Source: Methyloversatilis sp.
GTDB taxonomy: Bacteria; Pseudomonadota; Gammaproteobacteria; Burkholderiales; Rhodocyclaceae
Reading direction: 5' to 3'
DNA: 64,000 bases
Assembly: GCA_017984755.1 (NCBI GenBank)
Contig: JAGNYW010000003.1
Coordinates: 97,744 to 161,743 of the forward strand
The notes under the pieces were generated by a model. It was given only the letters and a program-made list of their open reading frames with translations. It was not told where the DNA came from and did not search any database. Below are positions 5,164 through 60,132 of the stretch, one piece after another (position 1 is the first letter of the stretch; each line of letters begins with the position of its first letter). A program made the translations under genes and the position numbers.

Positions 5164-6624
5164 TCAGGGCTCCGGAAAGATCACGCCCTGCACCCAGAAG
5201 CGCGGCTGAAAGTTGGCTATTCCTGTCTTCTGCAGACCTTCCAGCTCCCACGCCTCGAGCCGCGACAGTTCGGGCCACAATGAAGACCACAGGGCGAGCA
5301 CCATGAGCAGAGGCAGAAAGCGCATAACCTGCCATGCGCGGGCTTGCCACAGCGGAAGGGGCGCGGTTACCGGAGGGTCTAGCGACATCAACCAGGCGCA
5401 GAGGACCACAAACATCAGCTGGCTGTGCGGAGCAATCAACAAGCCATCCAGTTGCGCTTCGATCAGCGCGCCGGTGAAGCACATCCAGAGCACAAGACGA
5501 GTCGAATCCATTTCGATCCGACCGCGCATGAACTGACGCCACATGAAACGCAGCGTGCCACCGATGACCAGCAGTGCGAACGGCACCCCCCACTCGTAAG
5601 CCAATTGCAGAATAACGTTGTGGGTGGTGCTCGCAGCGCCAGTACCCGTCGCCGAAAACATCATTGGCCCCGCGCCGAACAACGGTCGCTCCACGATACC
5701 AGTCCATGCAACACCCCACAGCAGGTCACGGCGCGTCAGAATCATGCCGCTGCTCAATCGATCGATCGAATTCAACGCTTCCAGACCCGTGGAAACAGTA
5801 GGCCAGTACACGAAAAACAGCTGATGCAACGCAAAACCTGCAGCAACAGCCAGTGCTCCTCTTCTTGCCAGATCACGCCCCGTTGGGCCGCCCAGCGCTA
5901 CGAGCCCGAGCATGACAAAGGCAGCAAGCCACGCAGCACGGGTACCGGAAAAAAAAACCATCGACCACCACGCCGCAGCAAAGATGAAAAGCAGCGCTGG
6001 AAGCAACTTTTCATGAATGAAACCAGCATGCCGGAAAATAGTTGGTCGCAACAACAATAGCGGCCAAGACAACGTAACCCATGCGCCGAACAGACGGGGA
6101 TTGACGAACCCATCGAAAAAGGTGAATGGGTTCGGAAGAATGTCGTTGGTCACCAACAGCACCAGCCACTGCATCGATATCAGTGTGTACCAGACAATCG
6201 ATAGCTGAGCTGCCAGTAGAAGCGCGTCGCTCAGGTTGAATTCGCGGATCAGCCCCCCGCCCCAAACGGCGACGATCACGAGCAGCGCCAGCATCAGGGA
6301 TTCAATCATTACCGGTCGGCCATTTGTGCCGTGCACCAGAAGGACGACAAGCAGCACGACACACAGGTACAGCAAAACCTTGAAAAGCCGGGATGAATTT
6401 CCGGCTGGAAGAAATGGCAAGAAGACGGCTGCCAGGGTGATGCCCGCGAGTTCCACCAGCCTCTGATAGTCGTACCCGGACTGCGGAAACTCCGGCTTGG
6501 ACAGAAGGAGCATCTTGACTGCTGCGAAGACCCCGAGTGGCACAAGCAATGCAAGGCGGACGATCACACATCTGTTGTACCGTCTTGTGATGTCGCCCTT
6601 GATCATGTTTCGGCTTGTGTTCAT
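5164..6624 (-). CDS. O-antigen ligase/PglL-type membrane glycosyltransferase (Wzy_C family)
   Basis: The 486-residue protein has about eleven hydrophobic spans. The WaaL/PglL signature is visible: an Arg-bearing SGTRAAWLA segment and THNVILQLAYEWGVPF with the conserved His in the large periplasmic loop. Such proteins move lipid-linked glycans to lipid A core or to proteins. The gene lies directly downstream of a type IV pilin gene, separated by an intrinsic terminator. The arrangement is typical of pilin O-oligosaccharyltransferases (PglL/PilO/TfpO), so pilin glycosylation is the favoured inference. ATG 6624 was chosen because an earlier in-frame ATG lies inside the terminator hairpin; ATG 6606 is also possible. 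Confidence 0.8.
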   Translation of the reverse strand: MNTSRNMIKGDITRRYNRCVIVRLALLVPLGVFAAVKMLLLSKPEFPQSGYDYQRLVELAGITLAAVFLPFLPAGNSSRLFKVLLYLCVVLLVVLLVHGTNGRPVMIESLMLALLVIVAVWGGGLIREFNLSDALLLAAQLSIVWYTLISMQWLVLLVTNDILPNPFTFFDGFVNPRLFGAWVTLSWPLLLLRPTIFRHAGFIHEKLLPALLFIFAAAWWSMVFFSGTRAAWLAAFVMLGLVALGGPTGRDLARRGALAVAAGFALHQLFFVYWPTVSTGLEALNSIDRLSSGMILTRRDLLWGVAWTGIVERPLFGAGPMMFSATGTGAASTTHNVILQLAYEWGVPFALLVIGGTLRFMWRQFMRGRIEMDSTRLVLWMCFTGALIEAQLDGLLIAPHSQLMFVVLCAWLMSLDPPVTAPLPLWQARAWQVMRFLPLLMVLALWSSLWPELSRLEAWELEGLQKTGIANFQPRFWVQGVIFPEP

Positions 6625-6641
6625 TGAGTTTCGAGTGAACG

Positions 6642-6672
6642 CAAAAAAGGGGCTCCTGGAGCCCCTTTTCAT
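6642..6672 (-). terminator. Intrinsic terminator after the pilin gene
   Basis: Reading the minus strand, AAAAGGGGCTCC - AGGAGCCCCTTTT forms a perfect GC-rich hairpin that ends in a T run. It starts about 15 bases after the pilin stop. It should end most pilin transcripts and limit expression of the ligase gene behind it. Confidence 0.9.
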
Positions 6673-6686
6673 CTACGACCGACGTA

Positions 6687-7151
6687 TTACGGGCTGGCCG
6701 GTGCTGCAGCGGCCGGGTAGGCCTTGATGATGGCCTGCTGAGCTGCCGTGTTGGTCAGCGTGTTGGCGCTCGACCAGGTGATGTTGGCCGCACCGGATGT
6801 AACGGCCGGCGTCAAGGTGAAGGTCAGACCATCCACACCCGTACCGATACCGGTCGCGAAGGTGACGACGATCACGCCATCGGTGGTCGTGGCGCTCGCT
6901 ACTTCCTTGGTGGCGACAGTCGTCGGGATGTTGTTGCTGCCACCATCACACGTCGTCAGCACGCCACCAGCTTCTTGGGCGCAGATACCGACCGCGGTCT
7001 TGGCCGACGCAATCGACGTCAGCGCGGCGGCAACCTTCGCACGCACTGTGTAGTCCTGATATTGCGGAATTGCGATCGCGGCAAGAATGCCGATGATGGC
7101 GACCACGATCATCAATTCGATCAGCGTAAAGCCTTGTTGAACCTTTTTCAT
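6687..7151 (-). CDS. pilA: Type IVa major-type pilin
   Basis: The 154-residue prepilin begins [21 protein letters not shown]. The short basic leader is cut after G7, mature residue 1 is Phe (N-methylated in the family), Glu5 is present, and IPQYQDY ends the hydrophobic helix. Two cysteines (ICAQ and TTCDG) are close together and unlike the usual C-terminal disulfide loop. The tail AAAAPASP is Ala/Pro-rich with a penultimate serine, a plausible O-glycosylation site for the neighbouring ligase. An AGGAGAG ribosome site precedes the ATG, and a sigma-54 promoter lies about 55 bases upstream. Confidence 0.93.
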
Positions 7152-7206: not shown

Positions 7207-7223
7207 AGCAAGGCCGGTGCCAG
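7207..7223 (-). promoter_or_regulatory. Sigma-54 promoter of the pilin gene
   Basis: On the minus strand the sequence CTGGCACCGGCCTTGCT matches the -24/-12 consensus YTGGCACGrNNNTTGCW at all but one position. It has the required 10-base gap between GG and GC. Transcription would start around 7197, giving a leader of about 45 bases with an AGGAG site. RpoN/PilR control of pilA is established in other type IV pilus bacteria. No pilR-pilS pair is in the window. Confidence 0.88.
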
Positions 7224-7346: not shown

Positions 7347-8978
7347 TCAGGGACGGAAACCGGGGATGCCCGAGAAGTCGACGTCGTCGATCTGCTCCGG
7401 GTCGAGGTAGGTTTCGGCGTATTTGAGGTACACCCGCTGCCGTACGAACACATCGAACAGGTCGGGATCGATGTGGCCGTTGAGGCTGAACTTGCCGAGG
7501 ATGGTAAGGGCTTCGGACAGGCGCATCGGTTGCTTGTAGGGGCGGTCCTTTGCGGTCAGCGCTTCGAAGATGTCGGCGATGCCCATCACCCGCGCCTGCA
7601 CGCTCATCTGGTGGCGTGCCAGTCCGCGCGGGTAGCCCTTGCCGTCCATGCGCTCGTGATGGCCGCCGGCGTATTCAGGCACGTTCTTCAGGTGCCGCGG
7701 CCAGGGCAGGGCCTCGAGCATGCGGATGGTCGACACGATGTGATGATTGATGATTTCACGCTCGCCCGCAGTCAGCGTACCGGCGCGTATGGTCAGGTTT
7801 TCGACTTCCTCCGCACTCAGGCATGCGCGCAGCACGCCGCGTGAGTCCGTCCAGTTCCATCGGCGGGCGATGGCGCGGACCCGTTCCATATCGGCATCGC
7901 TCATGCGCTCCGATCCGACGTTGGCGTGGTGCAGAAAGGCGCGGTCCGCATCGAGATCCTGCAATGGGTCCGGATCATCGCCTTCGATCTTGCCCGACGC
8001 CGCCTGCGCTGACGTTTCGCCGGCAGCCAGTCTGCGCTGCAGCACCGTCATCTGGATGTCACGACGGATCAGTTCGAAGCGGGTATCGATCAGTTCGATG
8101 CGATCGAAGATGGTCTGCAATTTGGTGGCCTTGTCGACCACATGCACGGGCGTGGTGACCTTGCCGCAATCGTGCAGCAGACCCGCGATCTTCAGTTCGT
8201 AACGATCGGCATCGCTCATCGTGAAGGCAGCGAGCGGGCCGTGCTGCGTATCGTTCACTGCCTCGGCCAGCATCATCGTCAGCGTCGGCACGCGCTGACA
8301 ATGTCCCCCGGTATAGGGTGACTTTTCGTCGATCGCGTTGTTGATCAGCGTGATGAAGGACTCGAACAGCGCCTCGAGCTGGTTCAGCAACTGACGGTTG
8401 GTCAGTGCGATCGCGGCCTGCGATGCCAGCGACTCGGCCAGCTGGCGATCGGAGTCGGAAAACACACCCACTTCACGGGTAACCGGGTGCACCGCGTTGA
8501 TCAGCTGCAGCACGCCGATGACGGCACCTTCGTGATTCATCATCGGCACGGTGAGGAAACTGGTCGAACGGTAGCCGGTGCGTGCGTCGAAACTGCGCGT
8601 ACCGGAAAAATCGAAGCCTTCGGTACGGTAGGCGTCCGCAATGTTGACGGTCTGCCGTTTCAGCGCACTGTAGGCGGCGACCATCGACACATTGGGCGTG
8701 CCGTCGGCAAGGTGCAACGGCAGGGGCGGGAAGACGATGGGCTGTCCTGTGGTACCGCCCATCGCGATGCCCAGGGAATCGGTACGCAGTATTTCGAAGC
8801 GCAGATGTTCCTGCGCTTCGTCCATGCAGTACAGCGTTCCGCCATCGGCATGCGTGATGGCTTTGGCCGCCAGCAGGATCTTTTCGAGCAGCGCATCGGT
8901 ATTGCGCTCGTTCGACAGCGCGCTGCCTATCTCATTGAGCTGTTCCAGGCGCCGCAGCAGGTCTTCGATCTGTTCCAT
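7347..8978 (-). CDS. GAF-HD-GYP protein (putative cyclic-di-GMP phosphodiesterase)
   Basis: The 543-residue protein has an N-terminal coiled segment, a GAF domain (about 15-205, with GYRSTSFLTVPM and GVLQLIN) and an HD-GYP domain. The catalytic HD is at 269-270 (LLHDCGK), and HHERMDGKGYP ends with GYP at 448-450. An insertion of about 70 residues separates the HD from the second half of the domain. HD-GYP enzymes hydrolyse c-di-GMP, and some act on cGAMP. The GAF could sense a small ligand or cyclic nucleotide. It lies 36 bases after the GAF-ATPase gene and is probably cotranscribed with it; both carry similar GAF modules. Confidence 0.9.
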   Translation of the reverse strand: MEQIEDLLRRLEQLNEIGSALSNERNTDALLEKILLAAKAITHADGGTLYCMDEAQEHLRFEILRTDSLGIAMGGTTGQPIVFPPLPLHLADGTPNVSMVAAYSALKRQTVNIADAYRTEGFDFSGTRSFDARTGYRSTSFLTVPMMNHEGAVIGVLQLINAVHPVTREVGVFSDSDRQLAESLASQAAIALTNRQLLNQLEALFESFITLINNAIDEKSPYTGGHCQRVPTLTMMLAEAVNDTQHGPLAAFTMSDADRYELKIAGLLHDCGKVTTPVHVVDKATKLQTIFDRIELIDTRFELIRRDIQMTVLQRRLAAGETSAQAASGKIEGDDPDPLQDLDADRAFLHHANVGSERMSDADMERVRAIARRWNWTDSRGVLRACLSAEEVENLTIRAGTLTAGEREIINHHIVSTIRMLEALPWPRHLKNVPEYAGGHHERMDGKGYPRGLARHQMSVQARVMGIADIFEALTAKDRPYKQPMRLSEALTILGKFSLNGHIDPDLFDVFVRQRVYLKYAETYLDPEQIDDVDFSGIPGFRP

Positions 8979-9014
8979 CGCGCGTCGTCCGGACCGGTTG
9001 CCAACTGTCGGGAA

Positions 9015-11390
9015 TTACTTGATGCAGACGGCACGGACCTGTTTCATGTCTGTCATGCCGGCCAGCACCTTCTCCATGCCGTCCATCTTCAGCGTGCGCA
9101 TGCCTTCTTCCAGCGCAGTGGCCAGCATGGTGGCCACACGCGCACGCTCCTGAATGTTCTTCTTGATGGCGTCGGTGCCTATCATCAGTTCGTGCAGGCC
9201 GAGCCGGCCGCGATAACCGGTTTCGCCGCATTCGGCGCAACCCTTGGCCCGGTAGAGGGTGAAGCGGCCCTTGTCGTCGGCGTAGGCTTTCTGCCACTCC
9301 CTGGAAATGCGGTCCATGGCGGCTTCCGCATCGATCGCAAAATCCGGCGTGTTGCGCATTTCATCGCAATATTCTTCGAGGAAACGCCGTGTTTCCTCGG
9401 GACTCGGGTGCCAGGCCTCCTTGCAGACACCGCACAGGCGCTTGGCCAGTCGCTGGGCAAGCACGCCAAGCAGCGCATCGGCAAAGTTGAACGGGTCCAT
9501 GCCCATGTCGAGCAGACGGACGATGGATTCGGGCGCGCTGTTGGTGTGCAGCGTCGAGAAAACCAGATGGCCGGTCAGCGACGCTTCGATGCCGATGGCG
9601 ACCGTTTCCTTGTCGCGCATTTCCCCGACCATGATGACATCCGGGTCGGCCCGCAGGAAGGCACGCATGATGGCCGGAAAATCCAGCCCGGCCTTCTTGT
9701 TGATCTGTACCTGCCGCAGACCCTTCTGCGTGATTTCGACCGGATCTTCGGCCGTCCAGATCTTGGTTTCCGGCGTATTGATGTAGCCGAGGATTGAATG
9801 CAGTGTGGTGGTCTTGCCTGAGCCGGTCGGACCGCACACGAAGAACAGGCCGTAGGGTTTGGTGACGGCGTCCTTGAGCTTGCCGAGATTGGCAGGCAGC
9901 ACCCCCAGCTTGTCGATCGGGATCGGCTCGCCGGCCGCGAGGATGCGCATCACCACGTCTTCGACGCCGCCGGCGGACGGGATGGTCGCCACCCGCAACT
10001 CGATGTCCAGCGGACCGAACTTGCGGAACTTGATCTTGCCGTCCTGCGGCTTGCGACGCTCGGAAATATCGAGGTCGCACATGATCTTCAGGCGTGCAAC
10101 CAGGGCGCTGCGATAGCTGGCCGGCACCTCGATGTACGGGTGCAGGGTACCGTCCTTGCGGAAACGTACGTGCGTCTTGTCCTTGCCCGGACGCGGCTCG
10201 ATGTGGATGTCCGACGCACCCTGCTGGTAGGCATCGATGATGATCTTGTTGACCAACCGCACCAGTTCGTTGTCCGCCGCCGCACCGACATCGTCGGAAC
10301 CGGCGTCGAGCGCCTCGTCTTCTTCGCCCAGCATGTCCGACAGCAGATCGCCGACGTTGGTCTGGTCCATTGTCGAGCCGTAGAACTGATCGAGCGTCTG
10401 CAGGAACTCCTTGGTCGTCGTAACGTGGAAAAGCAGCTTGGACTTGGGGAAGATGTTGTTCACGACACGCGAGCTCTTCACCTTTTCAGGGTCGAGCGCG
10501 ACGATGGTGATGCCTGCCTGCCCCTCTTCCACCGGCACCCACTGCTGCTCTTCGAGATATTCGCGTTTCAGGTTCTTGATCAGGTCGAAGGGCTTGATGC
10601 GCTCAGGCCGGAACGCTTCGTAAGCCACGCCGAAAAACTTGGCAAGCGACGCGCCGATGGCCGGCAGCTTGACCTGGAAGTCACGCGCCAGAACATCCTC
10701 GACATCCACACCCTTGCGGCGAGCCGCGCGCGACGCGAGATCGAACTCCTGCGCCGACATGACTCCATCGACCACCAGATAATCGTATTTCGATTTCACG
10801 ACGTGCTGCGTGCGGCTGCGCTGCTGGAACGCCACCGCCAATGTGTGTGCCATGCTGAGCAGGCCCTCTTCCGCAAGGGCTGAAAAGGGCAGGCCGGACT
10901 TGTTGTTGATCAGCTGGACGACGCCGAGCAGATCCTTCTTTTCAGGGTCCAGGATGGGCGCAACCAGCATCTGCTTGGTGCGGTAACCTGTTTTCTTGTC
11001 GACGCCGTCCAGAAAACGCAGGCTGGACGAATGGGAGCGCAGCTCTTCCTCGTCGTAAACATCGCGAAGGTTCAACAGGCGCCGACTCATGCCGACGAAG
11101 CCCGCGATCGACTGTTCGGTCAGCGGGAGACGCAGATCCTTGAACGAATTCAGGCCGGTCTTGACCTTGGAAACGATGGTGGACTTGTCGTCACCCATCA
11201 CATAGATCGTCAGGCGGTCTGCATTGAACAATGCAGATATCTCCTGCGACAGTTCAAGCATGATTTCATCGATGTTCGTCGTGGCGTGTATCTTCGTCGT
11301 CACGCCCTGCAGGTTCTTGAAGAACGCGAGCCGACTGGATACATCACTCATTGCGCCCAGATCACTGGCCGGCGGCAGGACTGCACTCAT
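9015..11390 (-). CDS. GAF-fused PilB/GspE-type secretion ATPase
   Basis: The 791-residue protein has an N-terminal GAF domain (about 20-185, GYRTKQMLVAPILD and GVVQLIN), then a linker and N1-type (MshEN-like) region (about 200-360). The C-terminal part is a full GspE/PilB motor domain: Walker A GPTGSGKTT with Lys526, DEADP-like TAEDPVE, Walker B region DPDVIMVGEMRD, HLVFSTLHTN, and a CGVC...CAEC zinc motif. PilB-family motors power pilus or pseudopilus extension. A GAF sensor on such a motor is unusual, and no inner-membrane platform gene is next to it. GGGGTGA precedes ATG 11390; an in-frame ATG also exists at 11414. Confidence 0.88.
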   Translation of the reverse strand: MSAVLPPASDLGAMSDVSSRLAFFKNLQGVTTKIHATTNIDEIMLELSQEISALFNADRLTIYVMGDDKSTIVSKVKTGLNSFKDLRLPLTEQSIAGFVGMSRRLLNLRDVYDEEELRSHSSSLRFLDGVDKKTGYRTKQMLVAPILDPEKKDLLGVVQLINNKSGLPFSALAEEGLLSMAHTLAVAFQQRSRTQHVVKSKYDYLVVDGVMSAQEFDLASRAARRKGVDVEDVLARDFQVKLPAIGASLAKFFGVAYEAFRPERIKPFDLIKNLKREYLEEQQWVPVEEGQAGITIVALDPEKVKSSRVVNNIFPKSKLLFHVTTTKEFLQTLDQFYGSTMDQTNVGDLLSDMLGEEDEALDAGSDDVGAAADNELVRLVNKIIIDAYQQGASDIHIEPRPGKDKTHVRFRKDGTLHPYIEVPASYRSALVARLKIMCDLDISERRKPQDGKIKFRKFGPLDIELRVATIPSAGGVEDVVMRILAAGEPIPIDKLGVLPANLGKLKDAVTKPYGLFFVCGPTGSGKTTTLHSILGYINTPETKIWTAEDPVEITQKGLRQVQINKKAGLDFPAIMRAFLRADPDVIMVGEMRDKETVAIGIEASLTGHLVFSTLHTNSAPESIVRLLDMGMDPFNFADALLGVLAQRLAKRLCGVCKEAWHPSPEETRRFLEEYCDEMRNTPDFAIDAEAAMDRISREWQKAYADDKGRFTLYRAKGCAECGETGYRGRLGLHELMIGTDAIKKNIQERARVATMLATALEEGMRTLKMDGMEKVLAGMTDMKQVRAVCIK

Positions 11391-11459
11391 CTGATCACCC
11401 CGTTTCCGCTGCATGACGTGCCGCGCTCCGCGTGAGCCGAAGCATGCGCCGGATGCAGA

Positions 11460-12227
11460 TCAGAAATCGAAAACATGATTGTTTCGCAACATGTGCGGTC
11501 TGCGATCGCCGAGTGTGTCGGCGATCTCGCGCATGGTCATTTCCATCTGGCTGGGTTTCAGATGGGTGACATAGATATCGGCTGGCCGCCCGAGCTTCTG
11601 TAGCTCGCTGGCCAGCATGTCCGGGCAGAGGTGGCGGGACATCACGGCCAGCTGGCGGTCGCGGTCCGGAAAGGCGGTTTCGATGATCAGATAGCGCAGA
11701 TCGGGCAGGTCATTCACGGCCGCCCAGAATTCATCGCATACCGTCGTGTCGCCGGAAAAGGCCAGCGTGCCACCGCTCGAACGCAGTGCATAACCCACCG
11801 CCGGGACAGTGTGCTGCGCCGGAAGCACGCGCACGGAACGCCCGCGCATATCCACTTCGTCGCCTACGCGAATTTCACGAAAGCGCAGGAAAGGTTTCTC
11901 GGCTGACGGAATTTCCGTGAAATCCGGCCAGATCGACCAGTTGAAGATGTGACGGCGCAGCACTTCGAGCGTCGGACCTGTTGTCCATACCGTCAGCGGC
12001 TGCTCGCGCAGTTCTCCAACGGTATCCACCATCAGGGGCAGGCAGGCGATGTGGTCCAGATGGCTGTGGGTGATGAATACATGATCGATGCGCGTCAACT
12101 CGGCAATCGACAGATCGCCGACACCAGTACCGGCATCGATCAGGATGTCGTCGTCGACGAGCAGCGAAGTGGTACGCAGGTTTGCGCCACCGATGCCGCC
12201 ACTGCAGCCGAGTACCCTTATCCTCAT
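11460..12227 (-). CDS. Metallo-beta-lactamase-fold cyclic nucleotide phosphodiesterase candidate
   Basis: The 255-residue protein begins MRIRVLGCSGGIGG and carries the metal-binding HSHLDH at residues 54-59. Later ligand motifs are LPAQHTVP, FSGDTT and THLKP. The pattern fits MBL-fold 3',5'-cyclic-nucleotide phosphodiesterases (class II/PDE1-like) better than RNase Z or glyoxalase II. Its neighbour 22 bases upstream encodes an adenylate cyclase, which supports cAMP as substrate, but this is inference. A strong AGGAGCAG ribosome site precedes the ATG. Other MBL hydrolase functions remain possible. Confidence 0.78.
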   Translation of the reverse strand: MRIRVLGCSGGIGGANLRTTSLLVDDDILIDAGTGVGDLSIAELTRIDHVFITHSHLDHIACLPLMVDTVGELREQPLTVWTTGPTLEVLRRHIFNWSIWPDFTEIPSAEKPFLRFREIRVGDEVDMRGRSVRVLPAQHTVPAVGYALRSSGGTLAFSGDTTVCDEFWAAVNDLPDLRYLIIETAFPDRDRQLAVMSRHLCPDMLASELQKLGRPADIYVTHLKPSQMEMTMREIADTLGDRRPHMLRNNHVFDF

Positions 12228-12249
12228 CTGCTCCTCATGTGCAAGAACA

Positions 12250-14487
12250 CTACTTGGTCTCGAATGTGCGCACGCCGTCCCAGCCCTTGCCGGGCGGATG
12301 CAGACGGTAGTGTGCGATCTGTTCCGCGTACAGCCGATACAGACCGCAACCCGGATTCATGCGCTGAAGATTGAACAGCGTCAATTCAGCCTGATCCCAC
12401 TCCTGCGCCCGGAATTGACGCAGCGCGAGGTTCCATAATTTCAGTTCTTCGACCCGGCTTCGATCGAATTCACTCTCGAACGCGAGCGGTTCGTAGATCG
12501 ATACCGGCTCGTCCTTGCCCTTGACCCGTACCCGATCGACCTCGCGGAACACAACGTCCTTCACCGCGCGTCGCGTCGCTTCGCCGACCAGTATTCCCGC
12601 CTCGTACTGCTTGGTGAGCGATTCAAGCCGGGACGCCAGATTCACCGCATCGCCCATCACAGTATAGGCTTTGCGTACCGGCGACCCCATGTCGCCTACC
12701 GTCACCGGCCCCGTGTTCAGACCGATGCCTATCTTCAGTTCAGGCCATCCGCGAGCCACCAGTGACCGGTTCAGATCTGCCAGTGCCACATGCATCTTCA
12801 GCGCGGCTGCGACAGCATGCCGGGCATGTTCCAGGTCAGCTACGGGCGCACCCCAGAAAGCCATGATGGCGTCGCCGATGTACTTGTCGAGCGTGCCACG
12901 CTGATCCTGAATGACGGACGTCATTTCACCCAGGTATTCGTTCATGAGCTGCGTCAATTGTTTCGGTTCGAGCCCCTCGGAAATGCTGGTGAAGCCCCTG
13001 ATGTCGGAAAACAGCACGGTCAGTTCGGCATTGCGCCCTTCCATGCTGTAGTGCTCGGGGTTGCGGCTCATTTCCTCAACCAGTTCGGGCGGAACGTATT
13101 GCCCAAACATGCGTGCGAATTGCCGTTTGGAACGTGATTCGAAGAAATAGCCGTAGGCCATGTTCAGCGCGTAAAGGCCGACGATGAGCAGCAACGCAGC
13201 GGCGACCGGTAGAACGAAGTCCGCCAGCTGCCAGAACAGGAAATTCATGCCCGCCACGCCGAACAGCATGCCGCCCGCCAGCAAAGTGGCGTTCTGCGGC
13301 GACAACCTCGGTAGCGCCCAGATCAGCACGATGCCTACCAGGAGCAGCAGTACGACGTCGAAGCCGGTGACGTACTGCGGGCGGTGCTTGATGCGCCCGT
13401 CGAGCATGCCTGCGATCAGGTTTGCGTGGATCTCCACCCCGGGATAGGTACTGCCGACCGGCGTCGCCCGCAGATCGAGCAGACCGGGTGCCGTGGTGCC
13501 GAGCAGCGCGATGCGCCCCTTGAGTGCATCGACCGGCGTCCTGCCGGACAGCACATCTGCAAGCGAGTGATAGGCGAAGCTGCCTTGCGGCCCGCGATAA
13601 GGGATCAGGGCCGACACGTTTTCGTCCACCGGAACGCGCAACGTACCTTGACTGGCCTTCAGTTCCAGCCACTCAAGCCCGGCGTAGTCCCGGCTGGATG
13701 CTGAAAAAAAACCGCCCTCCGCGTAGCCCGGCACCAGTCCGGGATTCCCCAGCAGGGTGCGCACGATGGCGAGTGACAGCGATTCGTAATAGGCGCCCTT
13801 GTACTCGACCAGCATCGGAACGCGACGGTTCAGACCATCGAAGTCGGGCAGCGGGTTGAAATGTCCGGCGCCGAGCGCTGCATCCTGGAAGCGCTGCAGA
13901 TTTGCACCGAAGCTGCTGAACGAAGCGAAAGCAATGTTTCGTCCGCGAAAGGTGCCGGCTGGAAGCACCGGAGCCGGTAATGCCCCGCTGTTCAGACTGT
14001 CGGTGCGATCACCGAAGTAATAGCCGAGCAATATCGGGCGCTCCTTGAGCGAAGCGGCGAAGCGCGCGTCGTAATCGAGTTCGGGCCGCAACCGGTCCAA
14101 CGACTCACGGAATCCGGCGTTGTCGACCAGAGGTCCCTGCGCCAGTCTCTCCAGCGTGGGCAGGCCGGAACTGGTGTCCGGCTCGGCGAACACCACGTCG
14201 ACACCCAGCAGCACAACGCCGTAGCGTTGGAACAATGTGTCCATGAGCGCGGCGAGTCGCTCCCGGCTCCAGGGCCAGCGGCCGATCTCGGCCAGCGAGC
14301 GCTCGTCGATGTCGAGAATGACGACGCGGCTGTCTACACCGCCCGGCATCGTCAGCGACAGCTTCGTGTCGTAGGCGATCTGGTCCAGATTGCCCAGAAC
14401 CGGTATCTGATAGAAGCGCGCAGCATGCCCGAGCAGCAGGAGCAAAAGAAACAGGCCAATGCCGTAACGCAGCGTGTGCTGATTCAT
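12250..14487 (-). CDS. CHASE2-domain class III adenylate cyclase
   Basis: The 745-residue membrane protein has one N-terminal TM and a periplasmic CHASE2 sensor (about 35-350, with VVILDIDERSLAEIGRWPW). Three TM helices (about 365-445) and a cytoplasmic class III cyclase domain follow. Metal-binding FSDIRGF has its Asp at 495. The purine-specifying pair is Lys in LDKYIGD and Thr in YTVMGD, a combination typical of bacterial adenylate cyclases. It should make cAMP in response to an envelope signal. ATG 14487 is chosen over an in-frame TTG at 14514. The downstream gene encodes a candidate cAMP phosphodiesterase. Confidence 0.92.
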   Translation of the reverse strand: MNQHTLRYGIGLFLLLLLLGHAARFYQIPVLGNLDQIAYDTKLSLTMPGGVDSRVVILDIDERSLAEIGRWPWSRERLAALMDTLFQRYGVVLLGVDVVFAEPDTSSGLPTLERLAQGPLVDNAGFRESLDRLRPELDYDARFAASLKERPILLGYYFGDRTDSLNSGALPAPVLPAGTFRGRNIAFASFSSFGANLQRFQDAALGAGHFNPLPDFDGLNRRVPMLVEYKGAYYESLSLAIVRTLLGNPGLVPGYAEGGFFSASSRDYAGLEWLELKASQGTLRVPVDENVSALIPYRGPQGSFAYHSLADVLSGRTPVDALKGRIALLGTTAPGLLDLRATPVGSTYPGVEIHANLIAGMLDGRIKHRPQYVTGFDVVLLLLVGIVLIWALPRLSPQNATLLAGGMLFGVAGMNFLFWQLADFVLPVAAALLLIVGLYALNMAYGYFFESRSKRQFARMFGQYVPPELVEEMSRNPEHYSMEGRNAELTVLFSDIRGFTSISEGLEPKQLTQLMNEYLGEMTSVIQDQRGTLDKYIGDAIMAFWGAPVADLEHARHAVAAALKMHVALADLNRSLVARGWPELKIGIGLNTGPVTVGDMGSPVRKAYTVMGDAVNLASRLESLTKQYEAGILVGEATRRAVKDVVFREVDRVRVKGKDEPVSIYEPLAFESEFDRSRVEELKLWNLALRQFRAQEWDQAELTLFNLQRMNPGCGLYRLYAEQIAHYRLHPPGKGWDGVRTFETK

Positions 14488-14596
14488 CGGCACGCACCGG
14501 CGCAGGAGGGACAAACCGCACCGGGCACCAGGCTCGCTTCACGGCGGGTGTAAGGCAGCGAAGGCAACATCATCGGCGCGTATCTGTGAGCGTCGT

Positions 14597-15391
14597 TCAG
14601 CGCTTGATGAAGAACTCCATCTTGACCCCGGCGATCTCGATCACGTCATGATCCTCCAGTGGGTGAGCCTGTGCGTCGAGCTGACGACCATTGACGATGG
14701 GCATGTTCGTGCCTTCGACATGGGTGATGAAGTAGCCCTGCGGACGCCGTGTGATGACGGCAACCTGCAGACCGGGCTTGCCCAGAGTCGTCAGGGTCTT
14801 GGTCAGCTCCAGTTCCCGGCCCGCGTTGGCACCATTCAGTATCTGTATGGCACCGAGGTAACTGGCACTCGCCGCCACCGGCGGCGCAGCGGCGGGAGCG
14901 AGGGGCGGCGGCGGCGGGAAGCCGGCGTTGCCGACCGAAGAACCGGCAGGAAGCGACTGTCCCGGCCGGAAGCCGGCCTGTGTGTCGGTACCGGCACGCA
15001 CCACGGGCGCGGGCGCGGCGCTGGTTTCCGCCGGCGGCTTGCGCATCATGTCCGGACGCAGGACCATCGTCTTCTCGAAATCCGGCTGCGGCGCAGTGGC
15101 CGGTACTTCATTGATGTACTTCAGGCGGTACTTGCCGAGTTCAACAACATCGTTGTTCTGCAGGAAGTGTTTCTTGATCGGCTGCCCGTTCACATAGGTG
15201 CCGTTGGTGCTGTTCATGTCCTCGAGAAACGAGTCATTCAAGATGGTGACGATGACGGCATGCTCACCACTGATGGCGAGGTTGTCGATCTGAATGTCGT
15301 TGTGCGGCTTGCGGCCGATGGTGGTGCGCTCCTTGAGGAGCGGCAGTTCCTTGAGGACCAGACCATCCATGCTGAGTATGAGTTTTGCCAT
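14597..15391 (-). CDS. FHA-domain protein with second, degenerate FHA fold
   Basis: Residues 1-95 form a canonical phosphothreonine-binding FHA domain (TIGRKPHNDI, SGEHAVI, NSTNGTYVNG). A Pro/Ala-rich linker (about 100-165) leads to a C-terminal segment that still reads like an FHA fold (TTLGKPGLQ, PIVNGRQL, DVIEIAGVKMEFF). That segment has lost the GR arginine and the SxxH motif, so it probably does not bind phosphothreonine. The protein likely reads the output of the Ser/Thr kinase encoded two genes upstream. AAGGGACTGG lies before the ATG, and only 12 bases separate it from the phosphatase gene. Confidence 0.92.
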   Translation of the reverse strand: MAKLILSMDGLVLKELPLLKERTTIGRKPHNDIQIDNLAISGEHAVIVTILNDSFLEDMNSTNGTYVNGQPIKKHFLQNNDVVELGKYRLKYINEVPATAPQPDFEKTMVLRPDMMRKPPAETSAAPAPVVRAGTDTQAGFRPGQSLPAGSSVGNAGFPPPPPLAPAAAPPVAASASYLGAIQILNGANAGRELELTKTLTTLGKPGLQVAVITRRPQGYFITHVEGTNMPIVNGRQLDAQAHPLEDHDVIEIAGVKMEFFIKR

Positions 15392-15403
15392 TTTCCAGTC
15401 CCT

Positions 15404-16207
15404 TCACTTCAACCAAGCAAGCAGGCGCGCCATCCAGCCACGTTCGGTGGCCGGAAAGGCTTGCAGCACCCTGACCAGTATCACCGACACATTGTCGCGA
15501 CCACCGTTGTCGTTCGCCATCTGGACCAGCTGTTCAGCCGCCAGATCCAGGTTGGCCGAGAGCGCCTGGAGCGTGAGCGCGATGTCTTCGTTCTCGACCA
15601 TGTCGTTCAAGCCATCCGAACAGAACAGGTAAAGATCGCCGGGGACCACGTCGTAGGTATGAATCTCCGGTTCGACCACCGGATCGACACCGAGCGCACG
15701 GGTCACCAGATTCTTGTTCTGAGAGCGACGGGCGTCTTCCTCTGTAATCATGCCGCTGTCGATTTGCTCCTGCAACAACGAATGATCACGGGTCACGCAT
15801 TCGAACACGCCCGCGCGCTGGCGGTACATGCGCGAGTCTCCGATATGCGCAACCGATATGTGGTTGTCGCGAAACACAGCCATGACCAGCGTCGTACCCA
15901 TGCCTGCATATTGAGGCTGGCTTTCCGCTGCCTGGTAAATCGCATTGTTCGCCTGCCCGATCACCGCCTCGAGCAGCTCCGATACGCACCGCTTCGCCTG
16001 ACGCAGCCCCTGCGAGAGTTCGGCGCCGATCACGGCGGTGGCCATGCCGCTGGCAACTTCGCCGGCGTTGTAGCCGCCCATGCCGTCAGCCAGTATCGCG
16101 AGGCCGACCTCAGCCTGGGTGAACACCGCATCTTCGTTGTGCGTTCGGACCATGCCCGCATTGCTGCGGCTGACCATCTGAAGTGCCTGGCTGAGATCCT
16201 GAGTCAT
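15404..16207 (-). CDS. PP2C-family Ser/Thr protein phosphatase
   Basis: The 267-residue protein is a minimal PP2C/PPM domain. All metal-binding motifs are present: RTHNEDAVF, LADGMGGYNAGE, HIGDSRMYR, FCSDGLNDM and the final GGRDNVSVI. It should reverse phosphorylation by the kinase encoded immediately upstream: the kinase stop TGA and this ATG are one base apart (TGACATG), which suggests translational coupling. Upstream in-frame codons exist, but they lie within the kinase gene and do not encode PP2C sequence. Confidence 0.95.
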   Translation of the reverse strand: MTQDLSQALQMVSRSNAGMVRTHNEDAVFTQAEVGLAILADGMGGYNAGEVASGMATAVIGAELSQGLRQAKRCVSELLEAVIGQANNAIYQAAESQPQYAGMGTTLVMAVFRDNHISVAHIGDSRMYRQRAGVFECVTRDHSLLQEQIDSGMITEEDARRSQNKNLVTRALGVDPVVEPEIHTYDVVPGDLYLFCSDGLNDMVENEDIALTLQALSANLDLAAEQLVQMANDNGGRDNVSVILVRVLQAFPATERGWMARLLAWLK

Positions 16208-16208
16208 G

Positions 16209-18833
16209 TCAGATGTCGAAATCGACGTGTGTGATGGATTGTGTGAGGTTTCCAGCGCAGGTACGCAGGTCGGCTGCCATGTCGTTGCCGGACTGGTAGC
16301 GGACTTCGACATCCTTGGCCAGAGCGCGGTCGATGATCGCCGACAGGCAGTCCGGGACGTCAGGGCGAATGTCACGGATGTCCGGATGTGCTTCGTTGGC
16401 AATGCGGTACATCAGCTGCGCCATGGAATCGCCCTGGAACGGCAGTTTGCCGCACACCAGCTGGAACAGCATCACACCCAGCGAGAACAGATCCGACCGA
16501 CCGTCGATCTTCTTGCCGGCGAGCTGTTCGGGCGACATGTAGGAGGGGGTCCCGAGCACCATGCCGGTCTTGGTACGCGATGAATCGGTGATGCGGGCGA
16601 TGCCGAAATCCGTCACCTTCACCTGATCGGATTCCGGTTCGTACATGATGTTGGCCGGTTTCACGTCGCGGTGCACCACATTGTTGCCATGCGCATAGGC
16701 GAGCGCCTCGGCGACGCGCGCAACCAGATCCATCACCTTCGGCAGGGGCAGCAGCTGCCCCTGTTTGGTCTGGGGCACGAGATCCCGGCCCTTGAGAAAC
16801 TCCATCGCGATGTACGCGAGATCATGTTCTTCACCGGCGTCGAAGATGGTGACGATGTGCGGGTGATTCAGCCGCCCGGCTGTTTCGGCCTCGCGGAAGA
16901 AACGTTCCTTCACGTCCGCCAGTTCATCCTCGTCGAACTCCTGAGACAGAGCCATGGTCTTGATCGCGACTACGCGATTGATCTTTGGATCGCGACCCAG
17001 ATAGACGACACCCATGGCGCCCTTGCCCAGTTCCTTTTCGACCTGGTAACGACCGAGCATCGGTTTTTCCATCGTGCCGTCCTCGAGGATGCCGGCGTTG
17101 CTTCGCCCGCCGGCACCGCCGAGCATGACCGTTTCCGACATCGCCTTGGCACGCTGCACGCGCGTCTCCAGGTCCTTGAACTTGGGATTGAAGTCAGCCA
17201 TGTGGCGGAACACGCTTTCCGCCTTGTTGAACTGGCGCTTGCGCTCGAAATCGAGTGCGAGGTTGTAGAGATTCTCCATGACCGCGTCCGACAACGGCAC
17301 CTGACGGAACTTGTCCCAGGCCATGTCGAGTTGACCCTGTCCCTGGAAAGCCAGCGCGAGCATGCGGTTCGATTCTGCAGACTGCTCGTCGGACCTGTCC
17401 TTGCCGCGTTCGGTGACCAGAAATCGCTTCGTCGTCAGCAGCAGGTGGCCCACCAGCAGGAGCGTCGCCGGAAGCATCAGTTGCAGCCAGATGAGCTGAC
17501 CAGTCATGAGCATGAAATGAGTGACGAGGAGTGCGACAAAGATCGCCGTCGTCACGCCGGCTCCCAGACCCGCCTTCAGACGGGGCAGCAGCACGATGAG
17601 ATAGAGCGCAATCAGGAGGAAGGCACCGAACTCCGCTGCAACGGACCACGAAGGTGTCACAAAGAAGTGTTCCTGCAGGATGCTGGAAAGCCCGTGTGCC
17701 ATCACTTCGACCGAAGACATGGCCGGCGATACAGGCGTGGCGTAGAAGTTGCCGATGCCTGGCGCCGTCTGGCCTATCAGTACGATCTTGTCCCGATACT
17801 TGTCGAGCGGAATCTTGCCGTTCATCACATCGAAGAAGGAATCGACAGGGAATGCGGGTTTGCCCGCTTCGCCGCGGTAGTAAAAGCTGTACATGCCTAG
17901 ACCGGGGTCAGTCGCGACCTTCAGACGTGCGAGCGAGACGGATTCGCCGAGCGTCACGTTGATGTCGGCCACACCCAGATTCAGGCTCCTTGCCGCGATC
18001 AGGAGCGGCAGCGACGGATACAACTGATCGAAGTGGGTCATCACCAGCGGATGCAGGCGCAGCCCGCCGTCCCGATCGATGGAGGGGTTCAGGTGGCCGA
18101 CAGCGCTTGCGACCTTGCCGAGTTGTTCGATGACACCGGCCGATACATCCAGCGTCAGCGGCGGCAGCGGGTCTGTACCGGTAACATTGGTCAGCGCAGT
18201 CTGACGCACGAAATCAGGCAGAGGACGATCCGGCCTGCCTTGCGGCTCGCCATCGAGAAAGAGCATGGGCAGCGCCACATTGCCCGCCTTCCCGATGCTT
18301 TCGGCCAGCTGACGATCGGTGTTCAGGGCAGCTTCCGCTTCGCGCAGCGTTGCACCGAATGCATCGAGCGGATTCACGGCCGGCGGCGGCGGCTCGCTCG
18401 CCGTGGCGGCCCCTCCCCCCTCAGGCTGAGCAAGCGAGGTCGCCTGCTGATCACGCAACTGTTGATCTCGGGCCTGCTGCTCGAGCGCCAGCAGCCTGTT
18501 TATGTAGACCAATCCCGGATCGAGCTGCGGCTCGGCGAAGAAGATGGTAGTACCAACCACCTTGGCCTGCGCCTGGGCCAGCTTGTCGACCATGCGCGCA
18601 TGCACATCGCGCGGCCAGGGCCAGCGCCCGATGTTGTCGATGCTCTGCTGATCGATCGCGATGATCGCAATGCGCGGGCTCGGCGTTCGTTCCGTCGCAC
18701 CGACGCCGATGTCGTAGGCCTTGCGCTCCAGGCTCTGGACGATATCGGTCTGGGCGGAAAAGAGAAACAGCAGGCTGATGATGACGCCCAGGAACCAGTC
18801 CGTCTTCCACACAGCGGCTTTGGCCACGCTCAC
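16209..18833 (-). CDS. CHASE2-domain transmembrane Ser/Thr protein kinase
   Basis: The 874-residue protein has an N-terminal TM, then a periplasmic CHASE2 domain (RIAIIAIDQQSIDNIGRWPWPRD) interrupted by a Gln/Ala/Pro-rich insertion around 105-145. About three TM helices (around 410-480) and a helical linker follow. The Hanks kinase domain (about 590-860) has LGKGAMGVVYLG, the catalytic Lys in AIKTM, HRDVKPAN with HRD at 721-723, DFGIAR and GTPSYMSPEQ. Catalysis looks intact. The start is a GTG, the only sensible start ahead of the TM. It heads the kinase-phosphatase-FHA-cyclase-PDE cluster. Confidence 0.93.
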   Translation of the reverse strand: MSVAKAAVWKTDWFLGVIISLLFLFSAQTDIVQSLERKAYDIGVGATERTPSPRIAIIAIDQQSIDNIGRWPWPRDVHARMVDKLAQAQAKVVGTTIFFAEPQLDPGLVYINRLLALEQQARDQQLRDQQATSLAQPEGGGAATASEPPPPAVNPLDAFGATLREAEAALNTDRQLAESIGKAGNVALPMLFLDGEPQGRPDRPLPDFVRQTALTNVTGTDPLPPLTLDVSAGVIEQLGKVASAVGHLNPSIDRDGGLRLHPLVMTHFDQLYPSLPLLIAARSLNLGVADINVTLGESVSLARLKVATDPGLGMYSFYYRGEAGKPAFPVDSFFDVMNGKIPLDKYRDKIVLIGQTAPGIGNFYATPVSPAMSSVEVMAHGLSSILQEHFFVTPSWSVAAEFGAFLLIALYLIVLLPRLKAGLGAGVTTAIFVALLVTHFMLMTGQLIWLQLMLPATLLLVGHLLLTTKRFLVTERGKDRSDEQSAESNRMLALAFQGQGQLDMAWDKFRQVPLSDAVMENLYNLALDFERKRQFNKAESVFRHMADFNPKFKDLETRVQRAKAMSETVMLGGAGGRSNAGILEDGTMEKPMLGRYQVEKELGKGAMGVVYLGRDPKINRVVAIKTMALSQEFDEDELADVKERFFREAETAGRLNHPHIVTIFDAGEEHDLAYIAMEFLKGRDLVPQTKQGQLLPLPKVMDLVARVAEALAYAHGNNVVHRDVKPANIMYEPESDQVKVTDFGIARITDSSRTKTGMVLGTPSYMSPEQLAGKKIDGRSDLFSLGVMLFQLVCGKLPFQGDSMAQLMYRIANEAHPDIRDIRPDVPDCLSAIIDRALAKDVEVRYQSGNDMAADLRTCAGNLTQSITHVDFDI

Positions 18834-19039
18834 CCCCGGAATGATTCTGTCCGCTGGCCCCGTGCCGGTGACCAGCCGTTGTTGATTGCGCTGACGAAGC
18901 TTTCGCGCCTGAAAGTTACGCGAAAAAACAGCGACCTGTCACATATTCTTGCAGTTCGGCCTCAAGCCCGTCAAACGTCACTGTGCCAATCGCGGCGGAA
19001 TATCACAATCCAGACACATCAACAAACGGCAAAGAAGAT

Positions 19040-19993
19040 TCAGTAGGGCAGCTCGCGGCCTAGCGATGCCGCCCGCGCCTTGTCGAGAACGCGGGCAGCC
19101 AGCGACAGATCCTGGATGGCCATGCCCTGTGATTCGAAGAGCGTGATGTCGGTATCCGCACAGCGCCCGGGTCGCATGCCGGCCAGTACTTCGCCCAATT
19201 CCGCCATCGCGTACTCGGTCAGCCGACCCTTTTCCAGCGCCGGAAGAAGATCACCGGATTCGCGCAAGGCCGTCGCACGCGAGTCGACGACAACCCGTGT
19301 CGCGCGCCGCACCGCCGTTTCGTCTACTTCACGGCGTATCAACGCATTGGAACCGGCCGCCGTCACATGGCAGCCGGGCTGCAGCCAGCGGCCGTCGAAT
19401 ACGGGATCAACCGCCGTCGTGATGGTCACGACGATGTCGGCAGCCTTCACCATCTCTTCAGCACTCTCTGCCGGACGCACCCGGCGCCCCAGACGCGCCG
19501 ACTGTTCCGCACAGAACGCCTCGAGACGGTCGCGCTTTCGTGCAAAGACCTGTACTTCATCGAGTTCGCGTACCGCGCACAGCGCTTCGATCTGGCTACC
19601 GGCCTGCCACCCCGCACCGAAGACGCCGGCCACGCGCGCCCCCGGACTGGACAGCAGGCGCGCGGCAAGGCCGCCCGTGGCACCCGTGCGCATCATGCCG
19701 AGAAAATCCGCTTCCAGCACCGCAACCGGGCGCCCTGTGGCCGCCTCGAAAAGGTGCACCCAGAAACGCGCAGCCTCGCGACTCGTCGTGTAGCTCTTGT
19801 AGCCGATAAGACCCAGCGGCAGTACTGCACCGTGCAGAAGATGGAGCGCGGAGGACGGAGTACGGCTGCGCGCACGCGGCGTGTCGATGGCCTCGCCTGA
19901 AGCATGCCAGCGATGGGCATCCTCCACCGCCAGCAGGGCGTCCGGCATGGTCAGTACCTGCCGGACCTCGCCTTCGGTGAGATAGAGCGCCAT
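19040..19993 (-). CDS. Ornithine cyclodeaminase/mu-crystallin family NAD(P)-dependent enzyme
   Basis: The 317-residue protein has the family layout. The N-terminal substrate region contains LGLIGYKSYTT and ADFLGMMRTGATGG, and the Rossmann motif is FGAGWQA. TITTAVDPVFDGRWLQPGCHVTAAGSN follows. Family members are ornithine, lysine or alanine dehydrogenase/deaminases or imine reductases, and the substrate cannot be told from sequence. The gene ends about 200 bases downstream of the kinase start and is followed upstream by terC on the same strand with a 6-base gap, so the two probably share a transcript. Confidence 0.88.
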   Translation of the reverse strand: MALYLTEGEVRQVLTMPDALLAVEDAHRWHASGEAIDTPRARSRTPSSALHLLHGAVLPLGLIGYKSYTTSREAARFWVHLFEAATGRPVAVLEADFLGMMRTGATGGLAARLLSSPGARVAGVFGAGWQAGSQIEALCAVRELDEVQVFARKRDRLEAFCAEQSARLGRRVRPAESAEEMVKAADIVVTITTAVDPVFDGRWLQPGCHVTAAGSNALIRREVDETAVRRATRVVVDSRATALRESGDLLPALEKGRLTEYAMAELGEVLAGMRPGRCADTDITLFESQGMAIQDLSLAARVLDKARAASLGRELPY

Positions 19994-46855: not shown

Positions 46856-48307
46856 ATGCCCACGCCGAATGCCGCTCCCCCACCGAGACCCGGACCGGAT
46901 CGCCCGCGTCTGCTCATCGTCGATGACGACCCGCTCATCGCGGACTCGCTATCCTTCGTGCTGGGTACCGACTTCGACATCACGGTTCATGCCTCCCGCG
47001 CCACCGCCATCGAGTGGCTGCGCAGCCAGGAGACGGCGCCGGCACTTGCCCTCATCGACCTCGGGCTGCCGCCCTGCCCGCACCGGCCCGATGAAGGCTA
47101 TGCACTGATTGCAGACCTGCTAGCACACACTCCCGACACCCGCATCGTGGTGCTGTCCGGACAGGGCGAAGACGGTCTGGCACGCCATGCACGCGCACTC
47201 GGTGCCACCGAATTCGTATCGAAGCCCGCGTCTCCGCATGCGCTGCACAAGCTCTTGTGCCAGCTGGCGGAAACCTGCGACGCACCGGTACCCGAACTAC
47301 CTGCACTGATCGGCCAGAGCGAGCCGGTTTCAAGATTGCGCGCACAGATCGTTCAATACGCCGAACTGCCCTACCCGGTGCTGGTGGAAGGTGAGTCCGG
47401 CACCGGCAAGGACATCGTTGCGAACTGCCTGCACGCAGGTACTGTTCGCCAGGGCAAGCCGTTTCTTGCGCTGAATTGCGCCGCCATTTCGCCGAACCTG
47501 GTTGAACCCACGCTGTTCGGGCACACCCGGGGCGCCTTCACCGGTGCGCAGAGTGCGCGCGCCGGCTATTTCGAAGAAGCTGCCTCCGGCAGCCTGTTTC
47601 TGGACGAAATCGGCGAATTGCCGCTCGACCTGCAGGCCAAATTGCTGCGCGTACTCGAGAACGGCGAATACCAGCGCGTGGGCGAAACCCAGCTGCGTCG
47701 CTCCAGCGCACGCATCATCGCGGCCACCAATCGCGACCTGAGCGAAGAGGTGCGCGCGGGGCGCTTCCGGTCCGACCTCTATCACCGGCTCAGCGTCTTC
47801 ACCATCACGCTGCCGCCACTGCGCGACATGGGCGAAGACCGCCTGCTGCTGCTCGAACACTTTCGCGGCCAGTTCTGCGCACAACTCGACCGTCCGCCCT
47901 TCTCGCTGGGCAAGGAATCCCGCTTGGCGTGGCTGGCCTACACTTTTCCCGGCAATGTGCGCGAACTGCGCAATATCGCCATCCGGCTTGCCACGAAGTA
48001 CCCGGGTCAGGAGGTCGGCGTCGACGCGCTGCAGGCCGAATTCGATCCCGCCGCATCGCAGCCGCCTGCCGCCGGATCGTCGCCGACGGATGAACGTGAT
48101 CTTGCCGGCGTAGCGCTCGAACACCTGCGCGCCGGCGGATTCAGCCTGGATGCGCGGCTGCGCGAATGGGAAACCGCATATATTGATGCCGCCATGCGCC
48201 TCGCGCGCGGCAATGTCAGCGCGGCAGCTCGGCTGCTCGGCATCGCGCGCACCACGCTGTATCACCGCATGGATACACCGGACGCCAGCGCCGAACGCCA
48301 GGACTGA
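46856..48307 (+). CDS. Sigma-54-dependent response regulator (NtrC family)
   Basis: The 483-residue protein has a receiver domain (acidic IVDDD at 21-25, phospho-acceptor D68 in LIDLGLPP, Lys in FVSKPAS). A full AAA+ domain follows, with Walker A GESGTGKD and the sigma-54 contact loop GAFTGA at 226-231. An [13 protein letters not shown] segment and a C-terminal Fis-type HTH ([20 protein letters not shown]) are also present. It should activate RpoN promoters. It is one base upstream of mshM (TGACATG), so it likely controls or is cotranscribed with the pilus genes. No histidine kinase gene is adjacent. Confidence 0.92.
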
Positions 48308-48308
48308 C

Positions 48309-49778: not shown

Positions 49779-49879
49779 AATGCCATTTGCATTGACCTGG
49801 CACCGCAGACTGAGCATGATGTTGATCAAGTAAGGATTCCGCGTACCATCCCCAACCGAGTCCAGCCACCCCAGCGCCC

Positions 49880-54668: not shown

Positions 54669-54670
54669 CG

Positions 54671-60041: not shown

Positions 60042-60132
60042 CAAGCGTTTCACCGACATTCCCGTCGTGGCGGGGGCAACGTGCCCGCGCGAGCGGCGCC
60101 CCATACACTTCCACCGCAATTCAGGCGGCGCG

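Follow-up and report, generated by a model that had tools for sequence, protein, structure and literature searches.

What do a Ser/Thr kinase, its likely eraser and reader, and the enzymes of two second messengers do beside a pilus-type motor ATPase? This question is raised by seven genes of Methyloversatilis sp. found in a stretch of 64,000 nucleotides (the window), which corresponds to bases 97744-161743 of one contig of a draft genome of 3.27 Mb. The seven open reading frames (ORFs) are open, lie on the minus strand at positions 7347-18833 of the window and were all above the Pfam cut-offs in a profile scan. In run order, their Pfam make-up is Pkinase+CHASE2, PP2C, FHA, CHASE2+Guanylate_cyc, MBL/PDEase_II, GAF+MshEN+T2SSE (called GAF-PilB hereafter) and GAF+HD. 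The intergenic gaps, from the kinase downwards, are 1, 12, 82, 22, 45 and 36 nt; the PP2C start is better set at 16207, 1 nt beyond the kinase stop, and the gap of 82 nt between the FHA and cyclase genes is counted with a TTG start (109 nt if the cyclase ATG is taken). The adjacency, the short gaps and the families announced by the original prediction, made from the DNA letters alone, were confirmed. On balance, we lean to the view that the cluster is a self-contained, phospho- and cyclic-nucleotide-controlled unit for GAF-PilB acting as an extension motor of type IVa pili (T4aP).

The gene order was followed in a panel of 61 genomes (the source genome and 60 relatives). Forty loci were fetched on the basis of CHASE2 gene pairs lying about 4.2 kb apart across the relatives, and the pair is present in 33 of these loci; tblastn on the fetched loci revealed the one-strand order STK-PP2C-FHA-AC-MBL-(X)-GAFPilB-HDGYP, where STK and AC are the Ser/Thr kinase and the adenylate cyclase and X is an eighth gene described below. 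All seven genes were found in this order on one contig in 31/61 panel genomes, 13 of these 31 belonging to the genus of the window. Scattered neighbours in close relatives had been named as a possible refutation of the original prediction; the order was kept in 12/12 other genus members. GAF-PilB is present in 45/61 panel genomes and in none of the 16 others. The remaining GAF-PilB genomes comprise three loci cut by contig ends and consistent with the order (G025, G027 and G045), one locus with no HD-GYP gene at its place (G049) and ten partial loci. In addition, 80 named loci were kept from at least 554 confirmed stretches, and the flanks were long enough in 53/80. The strict order was kept in 44 of these 53 loci, in which PP2C, FHA and HD-GYP genes were found 53 times each, MBL 50, AC 47, STK 44, X 40 and a pilin match 39 times; the pilin was the next match after HD-GYP in 32 of the 44 strict-order loci. 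The panel and named-locus counts are not independent because some genomes are in both, and the row counts given below overstate independence owing to the close kinship of many rows, 13 of which belong to one genus. Among the matches listed, the closest named relatives of the window GAF-PilB are from Methyloversatilis, and the conserved block recurs in many environmental betaproteobacteria. In a wider sample of the class, 8/370 genomes matched GAF-PilB at E 1e-60: the source genome, G050 and six with distant GAF-PilB relatives. A cluster outside the taxonomic order was rejected after tblastn inspection of five of these six, none of which had another cluster gene.

The ten partial loci revealed which genes stay with the motor. 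Beside GAF-PilB, FHA was found in nine, MBL in nine, PP2C in six and HD-GYP in three of them, whereas the stretch read contained neither a kinase nor a cyclase of the cluster families. FHA and MBL are thus the closest companions of the motor, which suggests FHA, MBL and motor as the core of the unit. A class III cyclase was present in 45/45 GAF-PilB genomes, in the cluster in 35 and elsewhere in the ten partial ones. Parts of the unit also exist without the motor: cyclase-MBL pairs were observed in two genomes lacking GAF-PilB (L071 in G044, with an FHA gene in addition, and L070 in G059).

The residues expected in a phosphothreonine circuit were conserved. The catalytic K, D and D of the kinase were found in 33/33 rows and the metal-binding Asp of PP2C in 34/34. 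The FHA domain keeps its phosphothreonine (pThr)-binding residues R, S, H and N in 32/32 rows, and its best solved relatives are OdhI, the top match in the Protein Data Bank (PDB), and GarA; against the model NF041660 the protein scored 55.9 bits for a cut-off of 200. Inspected by eye, its second conserved domain resembles a degenerate FHA domain. The linker between the two contains a threonine in 34/34 rows (32 aligned and two short rows read apart), followed in the 32 aligned rows by L or I at +3 and R at +4. The kinase carries a matching juxtamembrane motif, SETVMLGG, with threonine T568; in this SETV-type motif before LGG, the T is present in 32/33 rows and the +3 L in 33/33, with variable flanks. 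The FHA protein may bind both conserved motifs, that of its own linker and that of the kinase. The odd case is G049 (locus L062), in which the kinase T is lost, the FHA protein reads EKTPTL, so that both motif copies differ, and neither X nor HD-GYP is at its place. Two unrelated ORFs, one TPR/outer-membrane-like and one FecR-like by eye, stand there between MBL and GAF-PilB (L062 11226-14272), where others have X. With HD-GYP absent from its place, this cluster would be a decaying or rewired one.

The cyclic nucleotide enzymes were as well conserved. Class III cyclases rely on two metal-binding Asp, on Lys/Thr for the substrate and on Asn/Arg for the transition state, and all of these were found in 33/33 rows. 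The MBL protein shows HxHxDH in 33/33 rows. Its best PDB match is 4ojv, the 3',5'-cyclic-nucleotide phosphodiesterase 1 (PDE1; E 6e-10), with nucleases close behind; the match spans the HxFNxxIWPD stretch. Its PF02112 hit is 61 residues only at its best stretch, and by the features of that class it reads as a putative class II phosphodiesterase. In the HD-GYP protein, whose best PDB match is 4mcw (presumably PmGH), the HD and HH residues were found in 31/31 rows and the GYP Pro in 30/31. The set of writer, eraser and reader, of maker and breaker and of c-di-GMP hydrolase, claimed by the original prediction, is compatible with these residues. The sensor regions of the two CHASE2 proteins, kinase and cyclase, are related (26% identity), as are the GAF domains of GAF-PilB and of the HD-GYP protein (25% identity, E 3e-7).

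A candidate reader of cyclic nucleotides is encoded by X (345-367 aa), which lies between the MBL and motor genes in 14 of the fetched loci. A cyclic-nucleotide-binding domain (CNBD) and a rhodanese domain were found in 5/5 proteins scanned. Glu and Arg of the CNBD were kept in 14/14, as was Cys of the rhodanese, and the nearest solved structures are regulatory chains of PKG and PKA, some of them matched in two stretches. X was found in 16/61 panel genomes, all 16 with GAF-PilB. At E 1e-25, X was detected in 0/13 genomes of the window's genus, and its relocation elsewhere in these genomes was rejected on this result. The source genome contains nine other CNBD stretches, one of them in a protein read from its sequence as Crp-like. 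Three Ser/Thr kinase ORFs of this genome (L211, L212 and L214) also have a cyclic-nucleotide-binding stretch, a PKG-like make-up.

GAF-PilB itself has a T2SSE core of 386.7 bits (Pfam), and Walker A K, Walker B E and His box H were kept in 32/32 rows. Its orthology with TfpB was rejected (394.9 bits for a cut-off of 850, NF053534). The N-terminal part has as best PDB match the cyclase 1ykd (E 2.4e-31), which we take to be CyaB2 with bound cAMP, then 4mcw and phosphodiesterase GAF domains. RLG-type ligand motifs mark the MshEN domains that bind c-di-GMP; in the MshEN half of GAF-PilB, which still scored 28.9 bits with Pfam, the RLG place reads KYD in 31/32 rows and RYD in 1/32. Binding of c-di-GMP by this half is unlikely because the ligand motif is gone.

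The cAMP part of the proposal has a serious competitor, to which we give roughly one chance in three or a little less: the MBL protein would be a nuclease or another hydrolase, the GAF domains would bind a ligand other than cAMP, and no cAMP circuit would surround the motor. RNase Z models match the MBL protein below their cut-offs, nucleases follow PDE1 closely, and the score against NF041851 was 43.6 bits for a cut-off of 400. The MBL gene also persists in loci with no cyclase in the cluster. The signature of cyclic-nucleotide-binding GAF domains of the CyaB/PDE type is NKFDE; in the motor GAF, it is incomplete, with N in 32/32 rows, F in 32/32 and E in 28/32, K and D being found in 0/32 (a K lies one residue beyond the K position in 25/32). 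Against this stand the PDE1 match over the HxFNxxIWPD stretch, the class III cyclase somewhere in every GAF-PilB panel genome and, in 14 fetched loci, the position of X, with its ligand Glu and Arg kept, between MBL and motor.

The link to pili comes from co-occurrence. Over their cut-offs, canonical PilB was called in 41/61 panel genomes and PilM in 54/61; the PilT family was found in 58/61. GAF-PilB is present in 44/54 PilM-positive genomes versus 1/7 PilM-negative ones. Among the 54 PilM-positive genomes, 29 have both motors and none has neither: the 15 without canonical PilB all have GAF-PilB (15/15) and the ten without GAF-PilB all have canonical PilB (10/10). This complementarity gave a Fisher p of 0.046, or 0.0074 with the genus of the window counted once, kinship beyond the genus being uncorrected. 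The original prediction of a module dedicated to type IV pilus function is in agreement with the PilM co-occurrence, the conserved order and the adjacent pilin; the pilin itself is a neighbour with its own sigma-54 site and stands outside the run. That prediction included neither the eighth gene as a reader of cyclic nucleotides, nor a motif resembling that of GarA/OdhI, nor the idea that canonical PilB has likely been replaced.

The usual pilB site was then considered in the 15 genomes lacking canonical PilB. In 14 of them, pilC orthologues (67-74% identity) and pilD were found, and no intact pilB was present in the 1.5 kb read upstream of pilC. The order in the source genome is up-pilB-pilC-pilD, "up" being the gene upstream of pilB. 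Six of the 14 pilC loci were read widely: "up" stands directly before pilC in four, it is absent in G050, and in G038 the usual pilB site between the two is occupied by a C-terminal pilB remnant of 151 aa (L192 7876-8331). When the presence of canonical PilB was placed as a label on a quick tree of GAF-PilB, the shortest count gave at least six changes, three of them forced by starred branches; this count is blind to loss versus gain. These results indicate that canonical PilB has likely been replaced by GAF-PilB in several lineages, the direction of change probably being loss. The genus of the window would have two extension motors, canonical PilB and GAF-PilB. At the thresholds used, one PilC and one motor, GAF-PilB, are left unpaired in G050, assembled in one contig, and in G014, a genome 83% complete. 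Strict elimination of other motors is limited to these two genomes, and was not upheld beyond them, because an orphan ATPase is also unpaired in most of the others.

This orphan, a PulE/GspE-type ATPase of about 600-680 aa, leads to an explanation that we regard as unlikely: it would extend the T4aP in the genomes without canonical PilB, and GAF-PilB would drive another, specialised pilus or secretion apparatus. The orphan, whose open frame spans 600-676 aa, is left unpaired in 12/15 of these genomes, its treatment as one family being based on profile range and length with three sequences read, and many loci have a pilin next to GAF-PilB. Conversely, ATPases of like length and profile range also occur in G017, G021, G036 and G055, which have canonical PilB, and the window's genus has similar ones; the orphan was not found at E 1e-50 in G050, G014 and G051, whereas GAF-PilB is in all 15. 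Moreover, a search around the cluster and its partial or contrast loci, 136 in all (40 of the panel, 16 further and 80 named), gave no pilC, no pilD and no secretin resembling that of the window, L079 being the positive control for pilC and pilD. The three orphans read (L218, L219 and L220; 627-663 aa) come from the PilB-lacking genomes G058, G057 and G046, and no pilus gene was recognised by eye beside them.

In the unit as we propose it, the two CHASE2 sensors would respond to a signal from the envelope or periplasm and pass it on, one to the Ser/Thr kinase and the other to the adenylate cyclase. The kinase would autophosphorylate and would also phosphorylate T108, the linker threonine of the FHA protein; PP2C would undo this. 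Once phosphorylated, the FHA protein would fold onto its own pThr-x-x-Leu tail, or dock on the matching motif of the kinase, as GarA and OdhI do, and by this switch bind or release a client, most likely the motor. The cyclase would make cAMP and the PDE1-like MBL enzyme would remove it; its readers would be the motor GAF domain, the CNBD/rhodanese protein where relatives have it, as many do, and perhaps a Crp-like regulator. GAF-HD-GYP would lower c-di-GMP nearby. A bolder version remains tentative, and we rather doubt it as a whole: a cyclic nucleotide and a phosphothreonine switch of the GarA kind would both gate the extension motor GAF-PilB directly, c-di-GMP sensing by MshEN having been traded for the GAF domain, and the unit would have repeatedly let lineages of Betaproteobacteria discard pilB.

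Besides the incomplete NKFDE and the unpaired orphan ATPase, several observations weigh against such a unit. The source genome keeps canonical PilB, and G024 has GAF-PilB with no PilM over the cut-off. GAF-PilB scored 462.6 bits against the PilB model TIGR02538, below its cut-off of 675.65, and the pilB-pilC-pilD order was not encountered at GAF-PilB, with no pilC or pilD beside it. Among partial loci, G050 has no FHA gene nearby and G030 no MBL. As regards the switch, the linker FEKTMVLRPDMM was aligned by phmmer to OdhI ETTSVFRADLL with a non-significant 9.2 bits (i-Evalue 8.2), the alignment was not repeated in the profile search, and the phospho-motif lies on the C-terminal side of the FHA domain, that of OdhI being on the N-terminal side.

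It is also improbable, in our estimation, that the cluster is a general hub of second messengers and phosphorylation, with the pilus as one output among several and GAF-PilB serving as an auxiliary or regulatory ATPase. The client of the FHA protein is proposed by analogy, the source genome also has the Crp-like protein and other cyclases, and the pilin has its own sigma-54 site, all of which would suit a hub. A hub accounts poorly for FHA and MBL staying with GAF-PilB where kinase and cyclase are gone, for the PilM co-occurrence, for the complementarity with canonical PilB and for the motor residues, all kept. Chance juxtaposition of the genes is rejected by the conservation of their order.

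No description of this gene set was found in searches of open-access papers, so that a real and widely conserved signalling operon around a PilB-type motor, of putative function, appears undescribed there. Five known systems offer partial likenesses. With GarA/OdhI, it shares an FHA domain as best PDB match and a linker motif weakly resembling the OdhI N-terminal one; the client of OdhI is 2-oxoglutarate dehydrogenase. In the present protein, the motif comes after the FHA domain and before a second conserved domain, and a pilus motor would be the client. The T6SS threonine phosphorylation pathway, whose members are PpkA, PppA and Fha, also groups kinase, PP2C and FHA; here the context is that of a pilus motor. 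The FHA protein scored 43.1 bits against the T6SS model TagH, below the cut-off of 120.25. In line with the lack of T6SS genes stated in the original prediction, a Pfam scan of 50 proteins encoded by window ORFs showed no T6SS family, some window ORFs and the rest of the genome being unsearched. Cyclic-nucleotide GAF domains are those of the cyclase 1ykd and of PDE2/5/10; 1ykd is the best PDB match of the motor GAF, in which the K and D of NKFDE are not at their places. The two-motor system PilB/TfpB of Acinetobacter baylyi, described in a PilB review (PMC11656802), likewise has an extension-type T2SSE ATPase, the window's genus having a second one beside canonical PilB; GAF-PilB differs by its front GAF, its degenerate MshEN, its own signalling operon and its model scores below the cut-offs. 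According to that review, cAMP and type IV pili are joined in one circuit in Pil-Chp/CyaB/Vfr of Pseudomonas aeruginosa, cAMP reaching the pili by transcription through Vfr, and c-di-GMP by adaptors such as FimX (PMC11656802). In the present cluster, by contrast, the cyclase, the phosphodiesterase candidate and the GAF-bearing motor are encoded together. The term GAF is absent from the text of the review (PMC11656802). If the proposal is true, a motor with its own maker, breaker and likely reader of cAMP and a full phosphothreonine circuit would constitute a direct post-translational route, and would explain how a number of T4aP-bearing betaproteobacteria manage without canonical PilB. Methyloversatilis universalis, Azospira oryzae and Sulfurisoma sediminicola are cultured organisms in which it could be studied.

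Table 1. Genes and promoter-like sites of the cluster region, in window positions.
Feature	Positions	Strand	Support
CHASE2 - TPR-like (by eye) - Ser/Thr kinase (STK), 874 aa	16209..18833	-	Pfam Pkinase 184.8, CHASE2 180.6 bits
PP2C Ser/Thr phosphatase, 267 aa	15404..16207	-	NCBIfam NF033484 247.8 bits, cut-off 230
FHA protein: FHA, linker DFEKTMVLRPDMM, second conserved domain	14597..15391	-	Pfam FHA 87.1 bits
CHASE2 class III adenylate cyclase, 754 aa; TTG start, ATG at 14487	12250..14514	-	CHASE2 176.3, Guanylate_cyc 90.1 bits
MBL-fold class II (PDE1-like) cyclic-nucleotide phosphodiesterase candidate	11460..12227	-	Pfam PDEase_II 51.5 bits, cut-off 23.7
GAF - degenerate MshEN - T2SSE ATPase (GAF-PilB)	9015..11414	-	Pfam GAF, MshEN, T2SSE
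GAF - HD-GYP, putative c-di-GMP hydrolase	7347..8978	-	Pfam HD_5, HD, GAF
Type IV pilin (PilA-like), adjacent	6687..7151	-	Pfam N_methyl, Pilin
Sigma-54 (-24/-12) promoter-like site of pilin gene	7207..7222	-	consensus match, 0 mismatches
Promoter-like site upstream of kinase	18945..18974	-	TTGACG-18-AAGAAT, TG before second hexamer

The sigma-54 pilin gene announced beside the run was recovered. Its start, at 7151, lies 195 nt below the HD-GYP gene, and its site matches TGGCAC-N5-TTGCW without mismatch; matches with at most one mismatch are at chance level within the window. A downstream pilin was found with a strict pattern in 19/31 loci, and the sites of these 19 have no mismatch in 12, one in six and two in one. 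Thirteen of the 19 are from the window's genus, the other six having one mismatch (five) or two (one). Among mononucleotide shuffles, 0.2% reach one mismatch and none reach zero. Separate promoters for each gene had been named as another possible refutation of the original prediction; the comparison across the genus covered the region upstream of the kinase, which is conserved. There, GTTTGAC and GAACTGCAAGAATATG are identical in 13/13 aligned genus members, and the number of promoter-like sites is at chance level in this region.

Directly upstream of the run, an ornithine cyclodeaminase-family (OCD) gene was identified with Pfam at 19040-19993. It is also upstream in 24/80 named loci (seven from Methyloversatilis or near kin) and in 4/10 partial loci; missing from most loci, it was set aside as a cluster member. 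Among the named loci, L116 and L126 come from metagenome-assembled genomes labelled Bordetella parapertussis with Rhodocyclales-like clusters, and these labels look wrong. Below the pilin, a Wzy_C gene (O-antigen ligase family, 5164-6672) may encode a pilin glycosylation enzyme. Finally, a plus-strand cluster at 46856-61458 encodes an NtrC-type regulator, an AAA protein, a secretin, a TPR protein, an MshEN-T2SSE ATPase, a T2SSF protein and a second class III cyclase, together with an N-methyl pilin-like protein (58701-60041); a similar region of Dechloromonas is described in one report (PMC2907700).

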